In this document: piece by piece, positions 48,600 through 53,756 of the stretch
How the letters are laid out: each line of letters starts with the position of its first letter
Position numbering within the stretch: position 1 is the first letter of the stretch
DNA from: Amedibacillus dolichus DSM 3991
Lineage (GTDB): Bacteria > Bacillota_I > Bacilli_A > Erysipelotrichales > Erysipelotrichaceae
Assembly: GCF_000154285.1 (NCBI RefSeq)
Contig: NZ_DS483477.1
Coordinates: 372,001-436,000, forward strand
Direction of reading: 5' to 3'
DNA length: 64,000 nucleotides
The notes under the pieces: generated by a model
The model's database searches: none
What the model was told of the DNA's origin: nothing
The model's input: only the letters and a program-made list of their open reading frames with translations
Made by a program: the position numbers and the translations under genes

Positions 48600-48655
48600 A
48601 CTTTTGATATGTGGTTTTGTAAAGAAATCACAAATGGAAAGGAAAGGTGAACAAA

Positions 48656-49948
48656 ATGTCATTGTTTAAAGGACCAATGCGCCAGCACATCGAAGGCTTT
48701 AAAGGACTGACAAACAAAAAAGACGTTCTGGAAGTTCAGCCTGGAAAGGAAGTTTGTATTCCTTTGGTATGTGGTGCTGTAACTAACATTGATATTCTTG
48801 TCAAAGAAGGCGACCATGTTTGTATCGGCACAAAGATCGCACAGTGCAATGAAGGTAACGTGGTTCCGATTTATGCAAGTGTTTCCGGTACGGTAAAGGG
48901 AACAAAGAAACTTATGCATGCTTCTCTTCGTCCGCAGGAGCATTTGGTGATTGAAAACGATGGAAAGTATGAGAAGATCCAATCGTTTGAACCGGTAGAT
49001 TATGAAACTGCCGATCGTGAAAGCTTGATTGATTTCATGATGAATGCCGGTATTATCGGCTTAGGTGGTGCAGGTTTTCCGTCTTATGTAAAATATAAAT
49101 TTGCAAAAGATGTGAAAATGCTGATTATCAATGCGGTAGAATGTGAACCGTTTATTACAGCGGATTATCGCACGATTCAGGAAAATGTGAAGGAATTTCG
49201 CACCGGTGTTCTTGCAATGCGAAAAATGGCAATGGCAAAGGAAGTGTCGATTGCTATTAAAAAGACGCATCAGGATTTGATCGATTTTGTAAATGAAGCC
49301 TTTAAAAACGATGAAGGTGTTAAGGCAGTAGGTGTTCCTGATGTATATCCGATGGGTTGGGAGCGTGTGCTTGTTCGTGAGCTGCTGCATAAGGAATATG
49401 AGAAATTGCCTATTGAGGTAGGTGCAATCGTGAATAATGCAGAAACGGCAATCGCCTTTGGTGAGGCATTGCTGTATGGACAAGCAATTACACATCGTAT
49501 TTTAACGGTCAGCGGGCATGGCGTAAAAGAACCGCAGAACGTAAAGGTTCCTGTTGGTGTTGCGGCAAGTGAAGTCGTTGCGGCATGCGGTGGCTATGCT
49601 TTTGATGAAGTGAAGCTGATTGCCGGTGGACCGATGATGGGAAAAACGATCGTGAATGATCAGTTTGTGATCGATCGTAACATGAATGCTTTAACGGTTT
49701 TGGAAAATAAACCATACGACAGCATTTCTTGCTTGCGTTGTGGGCAGTGTAGCGATCATTGTCCGGCAGGACTTCAGCCGGTTCGTATTGCACAGGCAGT
49801 GAAAACGAACGATAAGAGTGCAATGGAGCGTTTGTGTGCGATGGATTGTATCGAATGTGGTCTTTGTACCTATATTTGTCCATCACGCTTAGATGTTACG
49901 GAAAATGTACGTAAAGCGAAACGCCAGTTGGCAATGGCAAAGAAGTAA
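48656..49948 (+). CDS. rnfC: Rnf complex subunit RnfC
   Basis: 430 residues from ATG 48656 (MSLFKGPMRQHIEGFKGLTN), after AAAGGTGA. RnfC holds the NADH/FMN-binding domain (NAGIIGLGGAGFPSYVK, INAVECEPFITADYR) and two [4Fe-4S] motifs near the end (CLRCGQCSDHCP, CIECGLCTYICP). The Rnf complex couples electron flow from ferredoxin to NAD+ to export of Na+ or H+. First gene of the operon. Confidence 0.95.
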   Translation: MSLFKGPMRQHIEGFKGLTNKKDVLEVQPGKEVCIPLVCGAVTNIDILVKEGDHVCIGTKIAQCNEGNVVPIYASVSGTVKGTKKLMHASLRPQEHLVIENDGKYEKIQSFEPVDYETADRESLIDFMMNAGIIGLGGAGFPSYVKYKFAKDVKMLIINAVECEPFITADYRTIQENVKEFRTGVLAMRKMAMAKEVSIAIKKTHQDLIDFVNEAFKNDEGVKAVGVPDVYPMGWERVLVRELLHKEYEKLPIEVGAIVNNAETAIAFGEALLYGQAITHRILTVSGHGVKEPQNVKVPVGVAASEVVAACGGYAFDEVKLIAGGPMMGKTIVNDQFVIDRNMNALTVLENKPYDSISCLRCGQCSDHCPAGLQPVRIAQAVKTNDKSAMERLCAMDCIECGLCTYICPSRLDVTENVRKAKRQLAMAKK

Positions 49949-49961
49949 GGGAGGTTAAAGC

Positions 49962-51470
49962 ATGAAATATATCTTTAATGTATCGCCGAACTTACGCCAG
50001 AAGCAAAGCACTCAAAAAATTATGCTGGAGCTGACGATTGCATTGCTAATCGTATTTGGTTTCTCTTTAGCATATTATTTTCAAGCCTATGGCATGGATT
50101 ATGTTATACGTGCACTTGTTTTAATGGCATGTTCGGTTTTGACAGCACTTGTAACGGAGGTGGCATTTGCCTTCTTCATGAAAAAAGGTGTAAAATTTGA
50201 TTTGAAGTATGTAGGAAAATTTTTAAATAGCAGCTTTGGGTGGATTACCGCTATTATCCTTGTATTGATGACACCGATCAGTATTCGCCCATTTGCGTTG
50301 ATTGTTTCTACATTCTTGTGTATTCTATTCGGAAAGCTGTTGTTTGGCGGATTCGGTAACAATATCTTTAACCCGGCAGCAGTCGGAAGAGCAATTATTT
50401 TTGCGACTTTTATGGGAGCTACTACCGATGTTGTTACAACGGCAACACCGACTACTACGATTGCGACAGAATTTAACTGGCTTGTATTGGACAGTGATTT
50501 GATTACGGAAATGATGGACGCAATCGGCGGCTTGGGTACTTTATTTACCGGTTGGTATCCCGGGGCACTTGGAGAAACGAGTGCTTTATTGATTTTGATT
50601 CTAGGAGTTATCTTAGCAATTCGCAAGGTTATTGATTGGCGTATACCTACGATTTATTTGGGAAGCATTTTTGTTTTAACAGCAGCCATTGCGTTGTTTA
50701 GAGGAGTTGGAAGCTATGGAAATCTTCCTGGTTTTATTTGGTATCCACTTGTTCATGTTTTAACCGGTGGTGTCGTATTCGGTGCGGTGTTTATGCTGAC
50801 CGATCCGGTTACTTCGCCAACGAGTGCGCAAGGTAAAACGATCTTTGCTTTGGGTGCTGCGATCATTACTGTTTTGATTCGTATTAAGGCAAATCTTCCG
50901 GAAGGTTGCTTATACTCTATTTTAATGATGAATATGCTGACACCGATGATTGAAAGAGCGCTTGACGGTAAGCAATTGGCTCTTCGCAAGAAAGCTGCTT
51001 TCATGTTCGGTGGTGTAGCGATTGTTGGATTAGGAAGTGTTTTGCTTGCCGCAAGTGCGGTGCAGGCAAAGGAGCCGGATCCAAAAGTATTTGTCGCAAC
51101 CAGTGATGCGGAAACACAAAAATTCGATGCGCGTATTGATGCAAGCGTAGATAATGGTGATGGTACGACAACCTTTACGGTTGCGGCACAAGGTTACCAT
51201 AGTCTTGAGGACGCAAGTCAATACAATATTTTTGAAATCATTGTGAATACAGAAAATAAAACAATTGTTTCTGTGAAACCGACAACGATCGTTGATACGG
51301 AGTATGTCGGAGATAAGATTTTAGATGAAGGATTCCTTGCTCAATTCAACGGACTTGATTTGAGTGCAGATGTCAGTGTAGAAAGAAATGATGCTGTAAC
51401 AGGTGCTACCTATTCTGCACGTTCCACTGTACGTGCTGTTCAGGAAGTACGCAGTGCATTAGGATATTAG
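49962..51470 (+). CDS. rnfD: RnfD fused to a C-terminal FMN-binding domain
   Basis: 502 residues, against roughly 300-350 for ordinary RnfD. Residues 1-345 are the membrane subunit, with a flavinylation-type Thr in DVVTTATPTT (Thr162) and FMLTDPVTSPTS. A further membrane helix leads to about 130 extra residues with the FMN_bind fold of RnfG, ending in DAVTGATYSARST (Thr483 in TGAT). The extra domain would lie outside the membrane. GGAGG upstream. Confidence 0.9.
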   Translation: MKYIFNVSPNLRQKQSTQKIMLELTIALLIVFGFSLAYYFQAYGMDYVIRALVLMACSVLTALVTEVAFAFFMKKGVKFDLKYVGKFLNSSFGWITAIILVLMTPISIRPFALIVSTFLCILFGKLLFGGFGNNIFNPAAVGRAIIFATFMGATTDVVTTATPTTTIATEFNWLVLDSDLITEMMDAIGGLGTLFTGWYPGALGETSALLILILGVILAIRKVIDWRIPTIYLGSIFVLTAAIALFRGVGSYGNLPGFIWYPLVHVLTGGVVFGAVFMLTDPVTSPTSAQGKTIFALGAAIITVLIRIKANLPEGCLYSILMMNMLTPMIERALDGKQLALRKKAAFMFGGVAIVGLGSVLLAASAVQAKEPDPKVFVATSDAETQKFDARIDASVDNGDGTTTFTVAAQGYHSLEDASQYNIFEIIVNTENKTIVSVKPTTIVDTEYVGDKILDEGFLAQFNGLDLSADVSVERNDAVTGATYSARSTVRAVQEVRSALGY

Positions 51471-51482
51471 GAGGTAAGAAGC

Positions 51483-51992
51483 ATGAAAAAGATTATTCAT
51501 TTAACTGTATTCTTAGCTCTGATTGCCGGATTGGCAGGTGCTGCATTGGGCTTTGCGAACAATATGACAGCACCGGTTATTGCTGCAAATGACCTAAAGG
51601 CTGAGGAAGAAACCTTGCGTGTTATTTATCCTGATGGAGAATTTGAAATTGTCGATCAGGGAGTCAGTGATACCATTGAAAAGATTTTTAGGGTTGATGG
51701 GAAAAACTATATCTTTAAAATGAAGGTAAGCGGATATAAGGACGGAACCAGCTTTTTAGTTGCCTTAAATGATGATGGTACGATTTATGACTATGTTGCG
51801 ATCAGCAACGGAGATACCAACGGTATTGGTAGCAAGGTTACTGAAGATGATTTCCGTAATACCTTAAAAGGTGCTGATGCGACAAGCGATGAGCTATTAG
51901 ACGATACGATTGCCGGTGCTACGGTTTCCAGTAAGCCGGTACTGGAGGGTATCAAAGAAGCTGCAGATTATCAAGTAGACAGTTTAAAGTAA
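51483..51992 (+). CDS. rnfG: Rnf complex subunit RnfG
   Basis: 169 residues: one N-terminal helix and an external FMN_bind domain. The flavinylation site is AGATVSS (Thr147). The family carries covalent FMN attached by ApbE, which is not encoded in this window. AGGAGG lies upstream. Confidence 0.93.
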   Translation: MKKIIHLTVFLALIAGLAGAALGFANNMTAPVIAANDLKAEEETLRVIYPDGEFEIVDQGVSDTIEKIFRVDGKNYIFKMKVSGYKDGTSFLVALNDDGTIYDYVAISNGDTNGIGSKVTEDDFRNTLKGADATSDELLDDTIAGATVSSKPVLEGIKEAADYQVDSLK

Positions 51993-52007: not shown

Positions 52008-52667
52008 ATGAATCGTAAAGAAAATTTTACTGCAGGTTTCATTCGTGAAAACCCTGTATTCTCATTATACTTAGGATTGTGTTCAACACTTGCGATCACA
52101 ACCTCATTGAACAATGCGATTGGTATGGGTGTTGCCGTTATCATCGTATTGATTATGTCCAATGTTATTATTTCCTTAGTTCGTAACATTACACCTAATG
52201 AAATTCGTATTCCGGTGTATATTGTTATCATTGCAACTTTGGTAAAGGTTATTCAGATGCTGATCAAGGCGTATGCACCTAGCTTGGATAGTGCTCTTGG
52301 TGTATTTATTCCTTTGATTGTAGTAAACTGTATTATCCTTGGCCGTGCTGAAGCATTTGCCAGCAAGAACGGTGTCTTTGATTCCGCACTTGATGGACTT
52401 GGTATGGGACTTGGTTATACAGCCAGCATTATTTTGATGTCTTTGATTCGTCAAGTCATTGCTACCGGTGTGATTAGCTTTAATAATCCATTCGATGCGG
52501 CACAGACATTCTTCTCCTTCCGTATTATTCCGGAGGATTTCACGATTTCAATGTTTACTCAGCCATTTGGTGCTTTTGTTACCTTTGCATGTTTGGCCGC
52601 AGGACTTTCTGCCTATAAAACACATAAGGAAAATAAAGCAAAACAGCTGGAAAAGGAGGCGAAATAA
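52008..52667 (+). CDS. rnfE: Rnf complex subunit RnfE
   Basis: 219 residues with six helices and the Cys-bearing half-helices of the NqrD/RnfE family (GLCSTLAITTSLNNAIGMG, IVVNCIILGRAEAFASKNG). It forms the membrane Fe-S and ion path with RnfA. Confidence 0.94.
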   Translation: MNRKENFTAGFIRENPVFSLYLGLCSTLAITTSLNNAIGMGVAVIIVLIMSNVIISLVRNITPNEIRIPVYIVIIATLVKVIQMLIKAYAPSLDSALGVFIPLIVVNCIILGRAEAFASKNGVFDSALDGLGMGLGYTASIILMSLIRQVIATGVISFNNPFDAAQTFFSFRIIPEDFTISMFTQPFGAFVTFACLAAGLSAYKTHKENKAKQLEKEAK

Positions 52668-52670
52668 TCC

Positions 52671-53252
52671 ATGAATTGGTCAGAATTATTTGTCATGTTG
52701 ATTACGTTTGTCTTTATTAACAACGTTGTATTAAATCAGTTTTTAGGTATGTGTCCGTTTATGGGGGTTTCCAAGAAAAGCAGTTCTGCTCTTGGTATGG
52801 GAGCAGCGGTAACCTTTGTTATCGTAGCTGCAAGTATTGTTACCTATGGACTATATTATCAAGTATTAGAACCACTTGGCTTGGAGTACATGGATCTGAT
52901 TACCTTTATCCTTGTCATTGCGGCTTTAGTTCAGCTCGTAGAAATGATCATCAAAAAGCTAAGTCCTGCATTGTATAAAGCACTTGGTGTGTATTTGCCA
53001 CTAATTACTACCAACTGTGTGGTATTGAATGTAACGTTAAATAACATCAGTGCAAAATACAATTTTATTGAAATGCTGACATATTCGATTGCAATTCCGG
53101 TTGGCTTTACTTTGGTATTATATATTTTCTCAACTATTCGCGAAAGACTAGATGCGGCGAATACTCCGGCTTCTTGGAGAGGCAACCCGATTGCTTTGAT
53201 TGTTGCAGCGATCATGGCGCTGGCATTCAGCGGTTTGATGGGCTTGGTGTAA
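52671..53252 (+). CDS. rnfA: Rnf complex subunit RnfA
   Basis: 193 residues, six helices, homologous to RnfE with inverted topology. Cys motifs FLGMCPFMGVSKK and LPLITTNCVVLNVTL are present. Three bases after rnfE. Confidence 0.94.
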   Translation: MNWSELFVMLITFVFINNVVLNQFLGMCPFMGVSKKSSSALGMGAAVTFVIVAASIVTYGLYYQVLEPLGLEYMDLITFILVIAALVQLVEMIIKKLSPALYKALGVYLPLITTNCVVLNVTLNNISAKYNFIEMLTYSIAIPVGFTLVLYIFSTIRERLDAANTPASWRGNPIALIVAAIMALAFSGLMGLV

Positions 53253-53253
53253 T

Positions 53254-53424
53254 ATGAACTTTGTTATGCCGGTTGTGTATCTTGGAATTTTAGGCGGTGT
53301 GTATGCGCTTGTCTATTATTTGAATCACAAGACACCACTTCCAAAGGGCTGTGAAAATTTAAAGGCAGAGTGCTCAGGGTGCCATGATAAATCCTGTTGC
53401 AATCACCCTGCACATGATCAATAG
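53254..53424 (+). CDS. 56-residue Cys-rich membrane protein within the rnf operon
   Basis: ATG at 53254 starts one base after the rnfA stop. It reads MNFVMPVVYLGILGGVYALV, one membrane helix, then a cytoplasmic tail with five Cys and two His in ECSGCHDKSCCNHPAHDQ. The tail could bind a metal or Fe-S cluster. It resembles the small FeoB-associated Cys-rich membrane proteins in style only. It lies between rnfA and the very short rnfB and may be a novel accessory subunit. Confidence 0.7.
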   Translation: MNFVMPVVYLGILGGVYALVYYLNHKTPLPKGCENLKAECSGCHDKSCCNHPAHDQ

Positions 53425-53441
53425 GAAAGGGGACTTGTATA

Positions 53442-53756
53442 ATGACTATTATAACTGCTGTCGTTATGATGCTTGTACTAGGTGCTATTCTCGGTTTGGG
53501 TTTAGGTATTGCCGATCGTTTCTTAGCAGTAGAAACAGATGAGCGTGTTGAAAAAGTAAGCAGTATGCTTCCAAACTATAACTGCGGTGGCTGTGGCTAT
53601 GCCGGTTGCTCCGGTTTAGCAGAAGCTCTTGTCAATGGCGAAATTACGGTCGTAGGTACTTGTAAGCCATGTAAGGCAGATCAAAAAGCAGCAATTGCTG
53701 AGTATTTGAATACGACACCGGGACCAGACGGAAAATGTCTGAAGGTAAAGGCATAA
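53442..53756 (+). CDS. rnfB: Short RnfB (membrane anchor plus one Fe-S domain)
   Basis: 104 residues. A membrane helix is followed by the RnfB Fe-S motif LPNYNCGGCGYAGC with further Cys at CKPC and KCL. Ordinary RnfB proteins continue with ferredoxin-like domains to about 260-330 residues; here the stop comes right after the first domain and a terminator follows. No frame-shifted remainder is visible downstream. AAAGGGGA precedes the ATG. Confidence 0.85.
   Translation: MTIITAVVMMLVLGAILGLGLGIADRFLAVETDERVEKVSSMLPNYNCGGCGYAGCSGLAEALVNGEITVVGTCKPCKADQKAAIAEYLNTTPGPDGKCLKVKA

Follow-up and report, generated by a model that had tools for sequence, protein, structure and literature searches.

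Does the short open reading frame (ORF) between rnfA and rnfB of Amedibacillus dolichus DSM 3991 encode a genuine protein, and which part could such a protein play in an Rnf complex whose RnfB carries no Fer4 domain? A sequence-only reading of this locus had described a Cys-rich membrane protein which, together with the short RnfB, may replace the lost ferredoxin domains or mature the membrane Fe-S site. The operon was analyzed within a window of 64,000 nucleotides (G000:C2:372001-436000), in which the genes follow the order rnfC-rnfD-rnfG-rnfE-rnfA-ORF-rnfB.

The ORF between rnfA and rnfB

The ORF starts with ATG and ends with TAG; one base separates it from the rnfA stop codon (53250-53252) and 17 bases from the ATG of rnfB at 53442, exactly as had been read before. 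The features of the operon, all on the + strand, are:

48647..49948, +, rnfC
49962..51470, +, rnfD, 502 aa, with an additional C-terminal FMN_bind-like domain
51483..51992, +, rnfG (FMN_bind)
52008..52667, +, rnfE
52671..53252, +, rnfA (TIGR01943, above cut-off)
53254..53424, +, microprotein gene, provisionally named rnf-linked Cys-rich membrane protein, 56 aa (sequence, homologues, selection)
53263..53328, +, predicted single transmembrane helix, residues 4-25 (AlphaFold2, pLDDT about 90)
53323..53343, +, conserved juxtamembrane linker N24-x2-T27-P28-x-P30 (165-homologue alignment)
53350..53397, +, putative metal-binding motif C33-x6-C40-x2-C43-x4-C48 (165-homologue alignment)
53424..53432, +, Shine-Dalgarno-like ggaaagggg of rnfB, its first base being the last base of the ORF (sequence reading)
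53442..53756, +, rnfB, 104 aa, one helix and a single PF04060 FeS domain, without Fer4 (Pfam)

The product of ORF 53254-53424, MNFVMPVVYLGILGGVYALVYYLNHKTPLPKGCENLKAECSGCHDKSCCNHPAHDQ, contains five Cys (33, 40, 43, 48, 49), in agreement with the sequence-only reading, and four His (25, 44, 51, 54), where only two had been counted. The AlphaFold2 model consists of the one helix already recognized, followed by an unstructured tail, which would be compatible with folding only around a metal. Among 165 homologues Lys and Arg are almost missing ahead of the helix and amount to 2.3 per protein behind it; according to the positive-inside rule the tail should therefore be cytoplasmic.

Conservation is concentrated in the linker (N24 92%, T27 91%, P30 100% of 165 distinct homologues) and in four of the Cys (C33 85%, C40 99%, C43 100%, and C48 93% with alignment gaps in the other sequences), unlike C49, which is not conserved. 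These seven residues are identical throughout an alignment of 28 homologues, which omits L008, a homologue lacking C33. The first Cys is dispensable, and the three-Cys core reads C-x2-C-x2..7-C across the homologues. Had relatives failed to conserve the ORF or these Cys, the sequence-only reading would have been contradicted; this was checked, and the opposite was found for the ORF and for C33, C40, C43 and C48.

Homologues with 29-85% identity were present in 39 of 60 searched genomes, the own genome counted, and were always read from an open frame. In all 30 loci that were read out the ORF adjoins rnfA and starts within a few bases of its stop codon, and rnfB lies 3' of the ORF wherever the contig extends far enough. 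The pN/pS values of 0.15-0.27 against the closest relatives, which drop to near 0 in very close pairs, resemble those of rnfA and rnfB. The ORF is under purifying selection and is a genuine gene. With E values up to 10 admitted, Pfam yielded nothing for its product, NCBIfam gave a single sub-threshold match (CrgA, E 0.26), and a PDB search with the family profile gave no match. Furthermore, the open-access literature searched contains no description of the family, which is an undescribed one tied to Rnf with Fer4-less RnfB.

The C-terminal FMN_bind-like domain of the window's RnfD (residues 426-495) scores 21.2 bits, just below the Pfam cut-off of 22, and carries a GATYSARST flavinylation-like motif (window 49962-51470), and RnfD reaches 535-714 aa in L069, L070 and L073. 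In several related rnf operons the proteins at the RnfG position are very large (650-1114 aa) and perhaps contain multiple FMN-binding domains:

L192 5614-8661, very large RnfG-position protein
L193 332-3676, very large RnfG-position protein
L112 3176-5128, very large RnfG-position protein
L115 3674-5683, very large RnfG-position protein

Association with RnfB lacking Fer4 domains

Among 392 genomes of the phylum the microprotein was found in 113 and RnfA in 131, both together in 112 (Fisher p about 1e-76, kinship of the genomes being ignored), and the association spans about 18 families. A scan of genome contigs with a narrow alignment gave matches only in Erysipelotrichales or Firmicutes/Bacillota. 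One genome, G261, carries a homologue (L176 3151-3387) with no RnfA or RnfB detected, and its congeners do possess rnf genes. In E. coli, the one case outside the phylum that the analysis covered, no ORF separates rsxA from rsxB, the two genes overlapping.

That the RnfB of the window is short had been noted before and was confirmed; its only domain is PF04060. Across the 392 genomes the ORF lies immediately upstream of 95 RnfB genes, whose frames measure 92-135 aa save two of 183 and 187 aa; one frame (G200) could not be read. The two longer proteins (G268, G405) are no exceptions, since they carry tandem PF04060 without Fer4, an unusual layout seen at L067 5125-5688 and L068 3782-4333. Fer4-bearing RnfB of 260-267 aa occurs in four genomes (L102-L105; Fer4 was assigned by Pfam in L102 and by Cys motifs in the other three), where rnfA directly adjoins rnfB and no tail-bearing homologue turned up in a sensitive profile search. 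The microprotein is also missing from seven RnfA-positive genomes of apparent NQR type, three of them assigned by inspection of the NqrF-position gene beside the RnfA/NqrE homologue and four by similar scores together with no RnfB match. The link with a short RnfB, for which the sequence-only reading had suggested a look at rnf operons with short rnfB, is strongly supported: every inspected genome with Fer4-less Rnf, as judged by frame lengths for the listed genes and by sequences for the inspected loci, contains the microprotein or a divergent copy, and no inspected Fer4-bearing or NQR-only genome does.

Eight apparent absences (G116, G170, G219, G223, G256, G267, G283, G361) were rejected after divergent copies in situ (G219, G267, G283), miniature copies of about 34-40 aa (G116, G223, G256, G361) or a copy in trans (G170) had been found. 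The miniature form consists of the helix and C-x2-C-x2..3-C, in some cases with an additional upstream Cys. In total, the microprotein is encoded away from the detected rnfB in 11 genomes (G260, G348, G400, G357, G253, G234, G197, G338, G339, G350, G170), and several of these trans copies adjoin an aspS/comEB/lspA-like or phosphoglucomutase-like gene, the neighbors being named by sequence resemblance. In G260 a single detected copy, in trans, accompanies two rnf operons that both encode a short RnfB, and some f9 genomes (Izemoplasma-like, as far as their lineage can be inferred) contain extra rnf operons without a copy of their own. Such trans and shared copies are more often the behavior of an accessory factor than of a subunit.

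In a tree of RnfA and RnfE the Fer4-less Rnf form one clade (ultrafast bootstrap 76, weak support), within which relocated and miniature copies are nested. Consequently, the link between this gene and the short RnfB is one evolutionary transition, maintained over roughly 18 families, and not many independent ones.

As a side observation, paralogues of the microprotein occur near CsoR-type repressor genes (L067 3812-4348, PF02583 confirmed; L083 1508-4351), in the latter case also near genes apparently for copper transport, which hints that the role in metal handling may be a wider one.

Proposed role and competing explanations

In characterised Rnf the route leads from ferredoxin via the C-terminal RnfB clusters and a mobile FeS domain to the [2Fe-2S] cluster between RnfA and RnfE (PMC12174285, PMC9588780); the C-terminal RnfB clusters are missing in the window's Rnf. 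We propose, at what we judge to be even chances, that the microprotein is a membrane-anchored iron/Fe-S accessory protein dedicated to Rnf with Fer4-less RnfB. Its helix would dock on the Rnf membrane core, and its tail, on the cytoplasmic side, would bind either Fe(II) or an Fe-S cluster that is labile, thereby delivering or safeguarding iron for the [2Fe-2S] site of RnfA/RnfE, for the one FeS domain that RnfB has, or for both. In this it might act as NqrM does in Na+-NQR and RseC in other Rnf, with homology to either not detectable. This role is favored by the relocated copies, by a Cys core in which C33 can be lost and the spacing ranges from x2 to x7, and by the activity of Thermotoga maritima Rnf with its one-cluster RnfB; from these points and from the shared copy in G260 we infer that, of the two functions suggested by the sequence-only reading, maturation fits better than replacement. 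Against an accessory role stands the observation that NQR and Fer4-type Rnf of this phylum, which have homologous membrane cores, lack the microprotein as well as a recognisable NqrM or RseC (NqrM having been sought in part of these genomes), so cluster insertion there apparently proceeds independently of the microprotein. A gene that mostly stays within the operon would suit a structural subunit as well, and the association with Fer4-less RnfB counts as just one transition on the tree.

Such a subunit, the seventh of the complex and redox-active, would bind an Fe-S cluster in its tail or dock ferredoxin next to the single RnfB cluster and thereby substitute for the Fer4 domains. The restriction of the microprotein to Fer4-less RnfB, its position between rnfA and rnfB with usually coupled translation and its near-invariant Cys speak in favor of this explanation; the trans copies in 11 genomes, the two operons sharing one detected copy in G260, a Cys number and spacing too variable for a fixed electron-transfer site and the acceptance of ferredoxin by T. 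maritima Rnf with its one-cluster RnfB (PMC7414866) oppose it, leaving it somewhat unlikely. We also consider it unlikely that the microprotein (35-80 aa) is an obligatory seventh component whose Fe-S cluster in the Cys tail takes part in electron entry, the short RnfB and the microprotein forming a two-microprotein input module in place of a polyferredoxin subunit. A small metal- or redox-sensing or regulatory protein, which would tune Rnf expression or protect Rnf without building it, appears quite improbable: RseC of C. ljungdahlii has been interpreted as a regulator (PMC9124969) and the paralogue of G405 adjoins a CsoR-family repressor, but the microprotein has 56 aa without a DNA-binding domain, its membrane anchor is invariant and it tracks rnf across about 18 families.

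Weak PF12669 matches of 6 out of 20 diverse homologues (best 22.7 bits) and of three miniature forms might point to a FeoB-associated type of protein, with a general function in iron handling, that resides in rnf operons by happenstance. We regard this as very improbable, since the scores remain under the 27-bit cut-off, the window ORF itself is not matched, the genome already contains PF12669-type genes beside feoB-like genes, and the microprotein is nearly absent from genomes without Rnf. Finally, the ORF is short and tightly packed, as would be expected for a non-functional spacer or coupling ORF; the chance of this is negligible, being already contradicted by the purifying selection seen in pN/pS and further by the near-invariant Cys and the retention of relocated copies.

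The accessory role deserves attention because insertion of the membrane [2Fe-2S] cluster into RNF/NQR pumps is poorly understood, and the literature searched yielded no general Rnf maturation factor; the microprotein is a directly testable candidate. The analysis also draws attention to a large group of Rnf, hardly studied so far, that has a one-domain RnfB and occurs in gut Erysipelotrichales and their relatives; expression or purification of this Fer4-less class should include the microprotein gene.

Comparison with NqrM, RseC, PF12669 proteins and Thermotoga maritima Rnf

NqrM, which is required for NQR maturation (PMC12174285), resembles the microprotein in that one helix at the N-terminus precedes a tail with Cys, and in being encoded with an RNF/NQR-type complex. 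However, its Cys are arranged differently (SCGG, then C-x-C-x3-C or C-x2-C), and it serves NQR, whereas the microprotein goes with rnf. Membership in the NqrM family (PF04400, DUF539) was rejected: there was no Pfam match, an HMM built from seven NqrM database sequences, recovered from plasmid-collection records with an NqrM-like query, reached a non-significant best E of 0.005 in a search space of only the 28 homologues, and hhalign gave a probability of 14%, confined to the helix region. NqrM itself gave no match over the cut-off in 60 relatives, three f2 Fer4-type genomes included, and none in 20 NQR-bearing or related genomes (0/20). Three inspected NQR operons from NQR-only genomes contained no microprotein. 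The NQR-like operons at L181-L187 show the order NqrB/C/D/E/F with no NqrA-like gene within the stretches fetched, the identity of NqrF being checked by Pfam on L183.

RseC is, like the microprotein, tied to Rnf function, and both can be encoded in trans. It contacts RsxB and RsxD, and its CX2CX5C is the functional part, holding an O2-sensitive Fe-S cluster in vitro (PMC11729352); Rnf-dependent autotrophy of C. ljungdahlii needs RseC (PMC9124969). The core of the microprotein is usually CX2CX4C (x2 to x7 in variants), and the first Cys is dispensable in both proteins. The layout, however, is inverted: RseC (159 aa) has an N-terminal Cys domain, two helices and a C-terminal domain, the microprotein (56 aa) one helix and a C-terminal Cys tail. 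With non-significant HMM matches, among them 2.0 bits over 13 residues for the homologue profile against E. coli RseC, membership in RseC/MucC (PF04246) was rejected. In the phylum sample RseC was essentially undetected, the PF04246 matches being weak and mostly in the helix region, with two genomes only (G278, G162) over the cut-off. Fer4-type genomes gave no PF04246 match, and a clean alternation of RseC and the ORF within the phylum was therefore not seen.

The nearest Pfam family is FeoB_associated (PF12669), a weak resemblance below the cut-off: the best homologue scored 22.7 bits against a gathering score of 27. Its members (motif Cx3-5Cx2-3Cx6-8C, PMC8749426) are likewise tiny, with one helix and a Cys tail. 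In the window's genome, however, PF12669-type genes are feo-linked and separate from the microprotein gene, which resides in the rnf operon and not beside feoB. These genes encode two tiny Cys-rich membrane proteins besides the microprotein, each next to feoB-like genes, one above the PF12669 cut-off (43.6 bits) and one below (24.1 bits):

G000:C2:177102 (L274), tiny Cys-rich membrane protein beside a feoB-like gene
G000:C17:14186 (L275), tiny Cys-rich membrane protein beside a feoB-like gene

A further close system is T. maritima Rnf, considered here from published descriptions, whose RnfB (10.56 kDa, one predicted cluster) is a one-cluster protein as in the window, and which accepts ferredoxin (PMC7414866). 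Its operon is reported as rnfCDGEAB, with rseC elsewhere in the genome (PMC9124969). Since Rnf with a one-cluster RnfB accepts ferredoxin there, replacement of the Fer4 domains is not strictly required.
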